Shown one piece after another: positions 21,625-25,324 of a stretch of 35,224 nucleotides of DNA. This stretch comes from Frankia alni (GTDB taxonomy: Bacteria > Actinomycetota > Actinomycetes > Frankiales > Frankiaceae), in assembly GCA_026225295.1 (NCBI GenBank), contig JAMFSN010000146.1:1-35224 (forward strand). The letters are read 5' to 3'. The notes beneath the pieces are model-generated. The model made no database searches. It saw only the letters and a program-made list of their open reading frames with translations, and had not been told where the DNA came from. Numbering within the stretch: position 1 is the stretch's first letter; each line of letters opens with the position of its first letter. Made by a program: the position numbers and the translations under genes.

Positions 21625-21663
21625 TCACCGCAACTGGAGGGCCCTCACCGCAACTGGAGGGCC
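21625..21663. repeat. 20-bp tandem duplication at the ferredoxin 3' end
   Basis: TCACCGCAACTGGAGGGCCC (21625-21644) is repeated at 21645-21663. The second copy is the last codons and stop of the ferredoxin gene on the minus strand, so the first copy is a duplicate of the gene's tail, including a second in-register-like TGA, just downstream. Confidence 0.85.
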
Positions 21664-21863
21664 AGGGTCGGGCAGGCGGTCGCGGCCCGGCGGGCGGCGG
21701 CCCGGAGGCCGGCGTCCAGCGGGCGACCGTCGATGATCGGATAGCCCCAGTCGTCCAGCGTGACCCGCTCCGGCAGCAGTTCTGCGCACAGGCCGTGCGC
21801 CGTGCACCGGATCGGGTCGACGGTGATGAGGCCGGGTTCCGGCGCCCGCCCGGTCAGCGCCAT
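21645..21863 (-). CDS. Small three-cysteine ferredoxin
   Basis: The protein has 72 residues and is the last gene of the redox operon. RCTAHGLCAELLPERVTLDDWGYPI is followed by ATACPTLALQL. Only three cluster cysteines are present (20, 26 and 64); the position of the second cysteine of a [4Fe-4S] motif is His23. This is the pattern of P450-type actinobacterial ferredoxins, which carry a [3Fe-4S] or His-liganded [4Fe-4S] cluster. It would pass single electrons from the NuoF-like flavoprotein to a membrane or soluble acceptor. Its ATG overlaps the stop of the previous gene by 10 bp. No cytochrome P450 is in the window. Confidence 0.88.
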   Translation of the reverse strand: MALTGRAPEPGLITVDPIRCTAHGLCAELLPERVTLDDWGYPIIDGRPLDAGLRAAARRAATACPTLALQLR

Positions 21864-23179
21864 GGCTCCGCCTCGTCGCCGGTCGGCAGCGGGCAGACCG
21901 GCGGAGCCTCCGGCCGGGCCGAGCACCGGCCCGTCACGTGCTGGTCGACCTCGGCCGCGAACACCGTCAGGGCGCTGGTCACCAGCTGCGTCACCCCGTC
22001 GGGATGCGCGCAGGCCCCGCGCCCCCGGATCTGCCCGGCCCACCGTTCGAGGGTGGCCACGCCCCCGCGGTCGAGCCAACCGGCCGCCAGCGCGGTCAAC
22101 TGGGCGCTGATGGCCGGCAGGCCGAAGGCACACGGACCGCACTGGCCGGCCGACTGGTCGGCCAGCCAGCGGGCCAGGCGGGCCGTCTCGCGGACCCCGC
22201 ACCCGTCGGGCGGCAACGCGATGACCACTCCCGCGCCGAGGGCCACGGTGCCCGGGCCGCGCCCGGTGGTCAGCGGGGCGGCCCGGAATCCGTCCGTCGA
22301 CACCCATCGGCCCCCGTAGCCGCCGACCAGCACGGCCTGGACGCCGCCCGGGCCGCCACCGGCCCGGGCCAGCACCTCCGCGCCCCGCGCTCCGCCGGCC
22401 AGCTCGTAGACGCCGGGATCGGCCACCGCGCCGCTCACGGTGAACAGCCGGGTGCCGGGCTCGTCGGGGGTCCCGACCGAGCGGAACCAGGTCGGCCCGA
22501 AGCGGCCGATCAGCGCCAGATCGGCCAGCGTCTCCGCGTTCTGGACGAGGGCCGGGTGTTTGCCGACCCCGCGTTCCGAGGGTCGGGGCGGAGCGACCGT
22601 CGGCCGGGCCTCGCCGCCGCTCAACCAGCGGACCAGCGCGGTCTCCTGGCTGGCGACGTAACGCCGGGGAAGCTGGGCGATCTCGACGGGGGCGGCCGCC
22701 GGCCAGCGCGCGGCCCGCTCGTGGACCGCCGCGGCCAGGGAATCGGCCGCCGGGTCGCCCCGGTGCACCGCGACCGTGATCCGCCGGGCGCCGATGGCCG
22801 CCGCGGCCAGCTGGGCGCCGTCCAGGACGAGATGCGGCGCGCCCGTCATCAGGGCCCGGTCCTTGGCGCTGGCCGGTTCCGATTCGGCCGCGTTGACGAC
22901 GACCACCGGCGCGCGCCGGCCGCCGGCCCCGGCCACGGCCCGCAGTTTGGCGGCGGTCGGGAACCCGCCACCGCCCCGACCCCGCAGGCCGGCCGCCGCC
23001 ACCGCGTCGATCAGCCCGGCGGCCGCCGACCCCCGCGGATCGTCGAGGCCGGCCGCCGGACCCCACCGGCGGAGATGGTCGTCGAGGCGGTCCGGGGGCC
23101 GGCCCGGCCCGGCCGGCGGGAGCAACCGGCTGGGGGCGGCCGGCGCTTCGGTGGCCCGTTCGTCGATGACGCTCGTCAT
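21854..23179 (-). CDS. NuoF/RnfC-like flavoprotein with incomplete cluster motif
   Basis: The protein has 441 residues and belongs to the Complex I 51-kDa family. The FMN-binding glycine loop GRGGGGFPTAAKL (residues 67-79) and the NAAESEPASAKDR block (96-108) are clear. An SLBB-like domain follows (RLFTVSGAVADPGVYEL, about 244-260), and the C-terminal iron-sulfur region has SAGQCGPC (343-350) and Cys390. The usual motif is SCGxCxPC, so the first cysteine is alanine here (344). Three ligands remain, which suggests a [3Fe-4S] or labile cluster. The NADH loop typical of NuoF is not obvious, so the electron donor is uncertain. ATG at 23179, coupled by ATGA to the cytochrome gene. Confidence 0.88.
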   Translation of the reverse strand: MTSVIDERATEAPAAPSRLLPPAGPGRPPDRLDDHLRRWGPAAGLDDPRGSAAAGLIDAVAAAGLRGRGGGGFPTAAKLRAVAGAGGRRAPVVVVNAAESEPASAKDRALMTGAPHLVLDGAQLAAAAIGARRITVAVHRGDPAADSLAAAVHERAARWPAAAPVEIAQLPRRYVASQETALVRWLSGGEARPTVAPPRPSERGVGKHPALVQNAETLADLALIGRFGPTWFRSVGTPDEPGTRLFTVSGAVADPGVYELAGGARGAEVLARAGGGPGGVQAVLVGGYGGRWVSTDGFRAAPLTTGRGPGTVALGAGVVIALPPDGCGVRETARLARWLADQSAGQCGPCAFGLPAISAQLTALAAGWLDRGGVATLERWAGQIRGRGACAHPDGVTQLVTSALTVFAAEVDQHVTGRCSARPEAPPVCPLPTGDEAEPWR

Positions 23180-23832
23180 GCCGGGGTCCTTCCGGAGGTG
23201 GTCGGCAGCGGTTCGCCGGTCGGCCCGGACCGGAGCTGGGAAGGGGCCGGGGCCGGGTACGGCTCGTACGGGGCCCGGTCGGCCGCCGACGAGCGCCGGG
23301 ACCGGGAGCAGGCCAGGTCGGTCAGGCGCCAGATCCCGCCGCCGACGACCGCGGCGGCGCACAGTCCGGTGAGGCACCGCAACCAGAGGGTCGCGCTGTC
23401 GCTTCCGACGCCCAGCCCGTGGCAGACGGCGATCGGCCAGACCGCGTACCCGGCCCAGTGGATGGTCCGCCAGGCCCGGTAGCCGAGGTGGCGGCGGGCC
23501 AGGCTGGTGACCGCGACGGCGAGGAGCAGATCGACGGCCAGCGTGCCCAGTCCGACCCAGACCGGGTGGTATCCGGCCCGGAACGGGACGACGGCGTCCA
23601 GCAGGCTGACGGAGACGTAGCCGTCGAGGACGACCGCGCCGATGTGCAGGACCAGGACGGTCAGCGTCATCAGGGACAGGTTGCGGTGCAGGCCCTGGGT
23701 CACGAACCGCGGCCAGCCGGGCGCGGCCACCCGCTTCGCGGCGACGATGCCCAGCACCGTCGTGGCGGTCAGCCCGAGCAGGGCGACGATCCCGGTGCCC
23801 CGGCTGAAGTACCACAGCGCGCTGCCGGTCAT
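23176..23832 (-). CDS. Ferric-reductase-like transmembrane cytochrome b
   Basis: The protein has 218 residues and six hydrophobic segments. Two spaced histidine pairs in membrane helices, His49/His63 and His125/His138, match the ferric reductase-like/MsrQ heme-binding arrangement, giving two b hemes across the membrane. The last about 45 residues are a Pro/Ser-rich tail. There is no cytosolic FAD/NADPH module on the same chain, which suggests that the NuoF-like protein and ferredoxin encoded downstream are its electron source. Start ATG at 23832 overlaps the stop of apbE (ATGA). Confidence 0.87.
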   Translation of the reverse strand: MTGSALWYFSRGTGIVALLGLTATTVLGIVAAKRVAAPGWPRFVTQGLHRNLSLMTLTVLVLHIGAVVLDGYVSVSLLDAVVPFRAGYHPVWVGLGTLAVDLLLAVAVTSLARRHLGYRAWRTIHWAGYAVWPIAVCHGLGVGSDSATLWLRCLTGLCAAAVVGGGIWRLTDLACSRSRRSSAADRAPYEPYPAPAPSQLRSGPTGEPLPTTSGRTPA

Positions 23833-24968
23833 GAGCGCGTTTCCGGCCGGATGGGGTGGGAGCGGGCCTCCGGCGAGGCGAGGTGCGGTCGGGTCCCGTG
23901 CGGGGCCGGGTCGTCGGGGTCGGGCTCCGGCCAGCCGGCGACCCGTACGAGGTTGCCCTCGGCCCCGACCAGCAGGGCCGGCAGACCCAGCCGGGCCAGC
24001 CAGCGGGACGCCTCCCAGCCCAGGACCACCGCCGCCGTACTGGCGATGTTGGCGTCGACGCAGGTCGCGGCGGTGACGCTGACCGTCCGCCAGACCGGGG
24101 CGGCCGGGCGCAGGGTCCGCGGGTCCAGGATGTGGTGCAGCGGCTGCCCACCTCGGGACCAGCGCCGGACCGCCGTGCTCGAGCTGGCCAGGCCGCCGGC
24201 GCGGATCGCGATCGTCTGGCCGGGCGCGTCCGGGCCCGCCGCGTGGTCGTCCGTCACCCGGACGGGCCAACCACCGGCCGGTGGGGGACCGGCCACGGCG
24301 AGGTCGCCGCCGGCCGAGACGAGCACCCCGGCGGCGCCGATCTGGGCCCGCGCGGCCGCCGCGGCCCGATCGACCGCCCAGGCCTTGGCGGTCGCCCCCA
24401 GGTCGAGGGCCACGCCGACCGGTACCCGTACGGTCATGGCCAGCCGGTCGATCTCGACCGCGATGGTCGGCCGGCGGACGGCGGGCCCGCTCGCCGAGCC
24501 GACGGCCGCCGCGTCCGCCCACGATCCGGCCGGCTCGTCGCCGATCCGTTCGACCAGCGCGAAGTCCCGGTCGTAGCCGAAGCCGGCCAGGGTGCCCCCG
24601 AGGGTCGGATCGACGATCCCGCCGGTCAGCCGGGAGGCCCGGAACGCCACGTCGAGGGCGTCGATGAAGTCGACCCCGACTCCGACGGTCCGCCCGGCGG
24701 CCGCGTTGACCCGGCTCAGCTCGGAATCGTCGCGGAACCGGCTGCAGGCCGCGTCGACCCGGCTCAGCTCGCCGCGGACGGCGTCGACGGCCGCGGCGAG
24801 GACGTCCGGATCGGTGACGACCACGCGGATCCCGGTCCCGAGAGCGTGGAAATCGGCGCTGTTGGTGGCGGCGCTGATGGTGGCGGCGCTGGCGCCGGTG
24901 GCGGCGGACAGGGTCGGTTCGGGGGCGGGTCGGTCCGTCGAGAGCCGGCCCGACTGCATCGTGGTCAT
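23829..24968 (-). CDS. apbE: FAD:protein FMN transferase (ApbE family)
   Basis: The protein has 379 residues. ApbE attaches FMN from FAD to a threonine or serine of a target protein through a phosphoester. Visible blocks: FHALGTGIRVVV, ACSRFRDDSELSRVNAAAG, FDPTLGG-type motif (VDPTLGG), VALDLGATAKAWAVDRAA, VSAGGDLAVAG and HHILDPRT, with the Mg-binding residues in the last two. The N-terminal about 38 residues are Ala/Ser/Thr-rich; no signal peptide or lipobox is seen, so it may act in the cytoplasm. ATG 24968 follows GGGGGGAG and lies two bases past the upstream stop. No obvious flavinylation motif ([S/D]GAT[S/T]-like) exists in the neighbouring proteins. Confidence 0.9.
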   Translation of the reverse strand: MTTMQSGRLSTDRPAPEPTLSAATGASAATISAATNSADFHALGTGIRVVVTDPDVLAAAVDAVRGELSRVDAACSRFRDDSELSRVNAAAGRTVGVGVDFIDALDVAFRASRLTGGIVDPTLGGTLAGFGYDRDFALVERIGDEPAGSWADAAAVGSASGPAVRRPTIAVEIDRLAMTVRVPVGVALDLGATAKAWAVDRAAAAARAQIGAAGVLVSAGGDLAVAGPPPAGGWPVRVTDDHAAGPDAPGQTIAIRAGGLASSSTAVRRWSRGGQPLHHILDPRTLRPAAPVWRTVSVTAATCVDANIASTAAVVLGWEASRWLARLGLPALLVGAEGNLVRVAGWPEPDPDDPAPHGTRPHLASPEARSHPIRPETRS

Positions 24969-24970
24969 GG

Positions 24971-25324
24971 TCAGCTCCCCCCGGACGAGGTGACGGCGGA
25001 GCTGCTGGAGCTGCTCGGGGCGGAGGTGGCCGCCTTCAGTCCGTCGGATGAACCGGACGAGGTCGTCCCGGAGCTGGTCGTCCCGGAGCTGCTGGAGCCG
25101 GAGCTGGTCGTCCCGCTCGAGGTGCTGCCGGTGCTGGTGCCGCTGGTGGTCGTGCCGGCGGTCGCGGCCACGGCGGTCGTCCCCGACGAGCCGAGGTCGA
25201 CGGCGGCCGTCGCCGAGAAGACGCCGACCAGTCCCACCCCGACCGCCGCGATCACCCGGGTCGTCCGGCGCAGCCGGCGGGCGCCCGCGTCCCGCCGGCT
25301 TTCGCCCCTGTCTGAGGTGTTCAT
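24971..25324 (-). CDS. Secreted or anchored Ser/Thr/Gly-rich low-complexity protein
   Basis: The protein has 117 residues and is first gene of the redox operon. ATG 25324 follows GGGAGGG. Residues 1-22 are basic (RRDAGARRLRRTTR), then a hydrophobic segment (VIAAVGVGLVGVFSATAAV, about 23-42) acts as signal peptide or anchor. The remainder is almost only Ser, Thr, Gly and Ala (SGTSTGSTSSGTTSSGSSSSG-type run). No domain is recognised. Low-complexity Ser/Thr tracts of this kind serve as cell-wall spacers or glycosylated linkers. It could be the outer partner of the redox chain, but lacks a recognisable FMN-binding or heme motif. Confidence 0.7.
   Translation of the reverse strand: MNTSDRGESRRDAGARRLRRTTRVIAAVGVGLVGVFSATAAVDLGSSGTTAVAATAGTTTSGTSTGSTSSGTTSSGSSSSGTTSSGTTSSGSSDGLKAATSAPSSSSSSAVTSSGGS

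Follow-up and report, generated by a model that had tools for sequence, protein, structure and literature searches.

A small tethered protein with a flavinylation-like C-terminal tag as candidate ApbE substrate in an actinobacterial redox operon

The closest described systems to the locus reported here are the MsrQ-like flavinylation systems of Meheust et al. (2021), among them 31 clusters with a NuoF-like protein, from a survey restricted to clusters in which ApbE, FMN_bind, DUF2271 or DUF3570 carried a signal peptide or lipid site (PMC8238504). ApbE places flavin mononucleotide (FMN) on the last residue of the motif D-x-x-[ST]-G-A-[ST]; seven residues suffice for labelling, terminal tags work best and replacing the Asp of the motif with Ala has a minor effect (PMC12052999). 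The known substrates are FMN_bind, NqrB/RnfD, DUF2271, DUF3570, Flavodoxin_4 and FMN_red with a C-terminal extension (PMC8238504, PMC11334425). Here we describe a five-gene redox operon in a 35,224-nucleotide stretch of Frankia alni DNA (assembly GCA_026225295.1, contig JAMFSN010000146.1, positions 1 to 35,224, the whole of which we call the window), where a small membrane-tethered protein, encoded directly upstream of apbE, ends in a candidate FMN-attachment tag and has a good chance of representing a new class of ApbE substrate.

The five touching genes run on the minus strand from 25324 to 21645 and encode, in order, a Ser/Thr/Gly protein, an ApbE, a ferric-reductase-like cytochrome (CytB), a NuoF-like protein and a 3-Cys ferredoxin (Fd). 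Two nucleotides (nt) lie between the stop codon of the small protein and the ApbE ATG, ApbE and CytB overlap by 4 nt (ATGA), CytB and NuoF by 4 nt, and NuoF and Fd by 10 nt, in agreement with the original prediction of five genes abutting or overlapping by 2-10 base pairs at this place. As in the MsrQ-like systems (PMC8238504), a PF01794 cytochrome with two predicted hemes occurs in an apbE cluster together with a NuoF-like nicotinamide adenine dinucleotide (NAD) module, mostly in Actinobacteria, and the NAD(P)H module of those systems (PF00175 or PF10589) is represented by PF10589 (6.5e-16). The electron-chain arrangement had been put forward as different from known loci; as a novelty it is not supported, as the combination of NuoF-like, MsrQ-like and ApbE proteins was already reported in the 31 clusters (PMC8238504), and the layout is therefore not the new part. 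Unlike the MsrQ-like systems, the operon has no FMN_bind gene beside it, in the window or in the fetched neighbourhoods of its relatives, its substrate candidate being a domain-less tail, whilst its ApbE has no signal peptide and a separate ferredoxin is present. The predicted relationship to, yet difference from, Rnf and Nqr was borne out, PF03116 (the NqrB/RnfD/RnfE membrane subunit) not being found in the window's genome; as for the flavin-based extracellular electron transfer of Listeria, no Ndh2-like gene was seen in the operon by inspection, and the Ndh2/EetAB/PplA/FmnB set was not searched for. The tail ends in a looser likeness of the [ST]GA[ST] motif of known ApbE substrates, which FMN_red cases bear on an unstructured C-terminal extension; unlike these substrates, it has no folded flavin-binding domain, and its membrane-tethered linker simply terminates in the motif. 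We found no description of such a domain-less tail substrate in the open-licence literature, which is weak evidence of absence.

The small protein (117 residues, 24971..25324, minus strand) has an Arg-rich N-terminus followed by a single hydrophobic segment and then a Ser/Thr/Gly linker with the end ...AVTSSGGS. Relatives of the operon were gathered with the NuoF-like protein as query (45-55% identical, from many families of the class), and a second sample of 80 loci (L114-L193) was selected by ApbE similarity alone, ignoring the tail, with taxa including Streptomyces, Nocardia, Rhodococcus, Amycolatopsis, Acidimicrobiia, Solirubrobacterales and bins labelled Chloroflexi and Dormibacterota. 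Nearly always, apbE is preceded by a short open-reading frame whose product has a basic N-terminus, a single hydrophobic segment and then a linker in which S/T/G/P/A abound. Neither the window protein nor five relatives matched a Pfam or NCBIfam family; a profile of the relatives' N-terminal regions, built with the window excluded, recovered it at 5.7e-8 (best decoy 0.072), and the conserved anchor region spans residues 6-55 (25160..25309, minus strand), whilst the linker sequence is unconserved among members. Judged by this profile and the shared C-terminal tetrapeptide, the protein belongs to an undescribed family that is conserved at the N-terminus and in the last four residues, and the claim that the first gene had no known homologue is withdrawn. 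A truncated FMN_bind protein was considered and rejected, the operon having no FMN_bind match and the relatives none at that place, as was Tat (twin-arginine translocation) export, a twin Arg ahead of the hydrophobic segment being common yet not invariant. Net charge is higher before than after the hydrophobic segment in 74 of the 78 members, and this difference predicts an N-inside/C-outside topology.

A comparative search for the same gene order, proposed in the original prediction as a check, found it kept: of the first 40 loci, the window among them, 27 have ApbE-CytB-NuoF-Fd in this order, and the whole downstream order is present in 62 of 78 non-redundant loci with the small protein, across Actinomycetota and in the Chloroflexi/Dormibacterota bins, many of the others stopping at contig ends. 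On a Cnuibacter plasmid (NZ_CP020716.1, L111 2881-3291) the tail gene, with the end SSHATTKGS, sits between a histidine kinase and apbE and is absent from the gene table.

In the window the last four residues are S-G-G-S (24974..24985, minus strand), the proposed FMN-attachment tag by comparison with the relatives' tails and the motif literature, with the last Ser as the expected site. Exactly at the C-terminus, [ST]G[AG][ST] occurs in 54/78 members and the relaxed form [ST]x[AG][ST] in 67/78, with the strict motif inside the last 60 residues in eight more; shuffled tails gave a mean of 0.36 strict ends (maximum 3 in 2000 trials), and along the protein the motif peaks at the C-terminus only. 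Seven related Streptomyces loci have tails ending in the full canonical D-x-x-[ST]-G-A-[ST], as DSTSGAS. At most junctions the tail gene overlaps the apbE start by 4 nt, which places its last codons within the ribosome-binding region, and a C-terminal GGS could in principle be a by-product of the Shine-Dalgarno sequence for apbE. We regard this as refuted by controls on codons, spacing and other junctions, and give it next to no weight: Shine-Dalgarno-like words (GGAG, GAGG or AGGA) fall at the tail codons in only 9 of the 54 strict cases, the tag is written freely with TCN, AGY and ACN codons and with GCN where Ala alternates with Gly, and the motif occurs in 0 of 275 C-termini of ApbE, CytB, NuoF and Fd from the same loci, although a start codon overlaps most of these gene ends too. 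Shuffles, other C-termini, the rarity of Shine-Dalgarno words and free codon use thus indicate that the constraint acts on the protein. By their residues the tails place the motif core for ApbE flavinylation at the chain end, and for this reason the small protein is more likely the ApbE substrate than an oddity without homologues. Two further candidates for the FMN site were set aside: an internal D-G-L-K-A-A-T of the window protein is motif-like by eye, the relatives keeping the terminal tag instead, and CytB, NuoF and Fd show no conserved flavinylation motif. In a subgroup of the family (L035, L184) the chain continues beyond the tail motif (VATSGGS / VVTSGGS) with a C-terminal extension that ends in WRDD/WRDN.

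The operon's ApbE (379 residues, 23829..24968, minus strand; PF02424 5.7e-47) is an FAD:protein FMN transferase family member (FAD, flavin adenine dinucleotide) without a signal peptide. It keeps the HH-I-DP and LDLGATAK motifs and the other strongly conserved ApbE positions. Alignment to solved ApbEs places Asn307 (codon at 24048..24050, minus strand) where characterised ApbEs have an Asp, which we take to be a metal-site residue; the position is Asn in 73/74 tail-linked ApbEs vs. Asp in 10/10 ApbEs linked to FMN_bind. In the tree, tail-linked and FMN_bind-linked ApbEs from the same set of genomes are split by a branch with 100/98 support (the bootstrap not fully settled), and on this topology the tail-linked ApbEs are a distinct clade. 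Among 76 tail-linked ApbEs we found no lipobox or signal peptide, the few hydrophobic N-terminal stretches being strands of the ApbE domain. In three loci (L051, L069, L070) apbE is preceded by genes for two small linker proteins and itself encodes a third type of ApbE, with AEVxxKxLF at the metal site.

Eight genomes with a tail-type ApbE gave no match above cut-off for FMN_bind, NqrB/RnfD, DUF2271 or DUF3570. One 100% complete genome (G037) has no FMN_bind and a single ApbE, which belongs to the tail clade and lies ~1.5 Mb away from the tail gene, and seven divergent NuoF-like operons that have no ApbE are missing the tail protein as well. The window's genome holds two FMN_bind copies away from the operon. 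The same genome has two further ferric-reductase and FMN_bind loci with fused NAD modules (G000:C341 and G000:C101; loci L001/L195 and L002), one with its own Asp-type ApbE and the other with none nearby.

Several observations weigh against reading the tail as an FMN acceptor. The tails match the canonical motif only loosely, the Asp at -7 being mostly His, Val, Gln or Pro (the window tail S-G-G-S lacks the Asp of D-x-x) and the canonical Ala mostly Gly, as in the window; a free C-terminus is not essential, because in some members the motif precedes an extension; ~10/80 of the loci picked by ApbE have no adjacent tail gene in view, some owing to contig ends; the ApbE is predicted to be cytosolic and the tail outside; and ApbE activity is not certain, because the metal-site Asp is replaced by Asn. 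The tetrapeptide might instead have nothing to do with FMN and serve as a signal for docking, processing or export, with the ApbE flavinylating another protein, and the largely lost Asp, the frequent Gly for Ala and the presence of FMN_bind proteins elsewhere in several genomes, the window's among them, would fit this. We consider it unlikely, as the tails fit the [ST]GA[ST] core with Ser/Thr exchange and include full DxxSGAS cases, the motif is retained ahead of the extensions, the ApbEs of FMN_bind loci belong to a different clade and usually adjoin their own FMN_bind gene, and the eight genomes above are without any other known substrate. Less probable still is that the Asn-type ApbE is no FMN transferase at all but, for instance, only binds or hydrolyses FAD, and that the small protein tethers the cytochrome in a structural or regulatory role: the near-universal Asn and the 76 ApbEs without signal peptide or lipobox speak for it, whilst the remaining strongly conserved positions are intact, the FMN_bind-linked ApbE of the window's genome likewise has a reading frame without a signal peptide, and the tail fits the motif of a transferase.

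The other three proteins would supply the electrons. CytB (218 residues, 23176..23832, minus strand; PF01794 2.8e-8) is a ferric-reductase/MsrQ-like membrane cytochrome b in which Pfam detects no FAD or NAD domain. His49, His63, His125 and His138 are conserved in 34-36 of 36 relatives and are predicted to form two bis-His heme sites; the AlphaFold model (pLDDT, the predicted local distance difference test, 83) places the His pairs on helices 42-69 and 118-142, and the nearest solved folds are STEAP2, SpNOX, STEAP1 and csNOX5, with weak E-values (best 0.011). It resembles the NOX/STEAP/ferric reductase superfamily in fold and in these heme sites and differs in having no fused FAD/NAD domain, its NuoF-like donor being separate, and a cytochrome without its own flavin module beside a separate NuoF-like protein and ferredoxin is what had been proposed. 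The NuoF-like NADH/FMN/Fe-S (iron-sulphur) protein (441 residues, 21854..23179, minus strand; Complex1_51K 5.1e-34, NADH_4Fe-4S, PF10589) shares with NuoF of complex I the FMN/NADH-site residues and three of the four N3 cysteines (Cys347, Cys350, Cys390). Where complex I NuoF has the first N3 Cys, it carries Ala344, as do 40/40 relatives, and Cys327, Cys419 and His414 are extra invariant residues, for which reason its cluster ligation should differ and is probably unlike that of complex I. The ferredoxin is small (72 residues, 21645..21863, minus strand; Fer4_15 3.3e-12), with invariant Cys 20, 26 and 64. A 20-nt unit, TCACCGCAACTGGAGGGCCC, is tandemly duplicated over its stop codon (window 21625-21664; 19/20 identical by eye).

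From these features we infer flavinylation of the tag, its loading in the cytosol and the membrane topology, along with the order in which the carriers act and the direction the electrons take. The NuoF-like protein would oxidise NADH, with FMN first and Fe-S next, the ferredoxin would pass the electrons on to CytB at its cytoplasmic heme, and the outer heme would reduce a covalent FMN on the last Ser/Thr of the small protein, to which the operon's ApbE would have attached it. Because this ApbE lacks a signal peptide, the FMN may be loaded in the cytosol and export follow afterwards. The small protein would then be a flavin-tipped tether, anchored by its N-terminus with the rest a flexible linker, which takes the part played in other MsrQ-like systems by a folded FMN_bind domain and from which electrons would reach an acceptor outside the membrane. 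On the sequence evidence we consider it probable that the operon exports electrons across the membrane in this way, from NADH through the NuoF-like protein, ferredoxin and two b hemes to covalent FMN on the tether tip.

The neighbours of the operon include two-component genes, with a histidine kinase in 28 loci and a response regulator in 21. A b561/DUF4405-like membrane cytochrome occurs close by on either side in 12/78 (e.g. L124 3880-4554), possibly as a partner or an alternative electron entry. Plasmids of Cnuibacter and Arthrobacter carry the operon too, and on one plasmid a VIT family protein is close to it.

The substrate candidate is recognisable by its last four residues rather than by a domain, and annotation calls it hypothetical or misses it. 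It is likely a partner for many 'orphan' ApbE enzymes, and we lean, if only slightly, towards the wider proposal of a domain-less flavoprotein class, in which a tether bearing C-terminal FMN from a dedicated cytosolic clade of Asn-type ApbE is, once exported, the outer carrier of a widespread actinobacterial transmembrane electron-transfer complex and explains many such orphans. If true, a covalent flavin would be borne on the tip of a disordered chain, which is a design missing from the list of known substrates, and a broad actinobacterial redox system would be open to simple testing.
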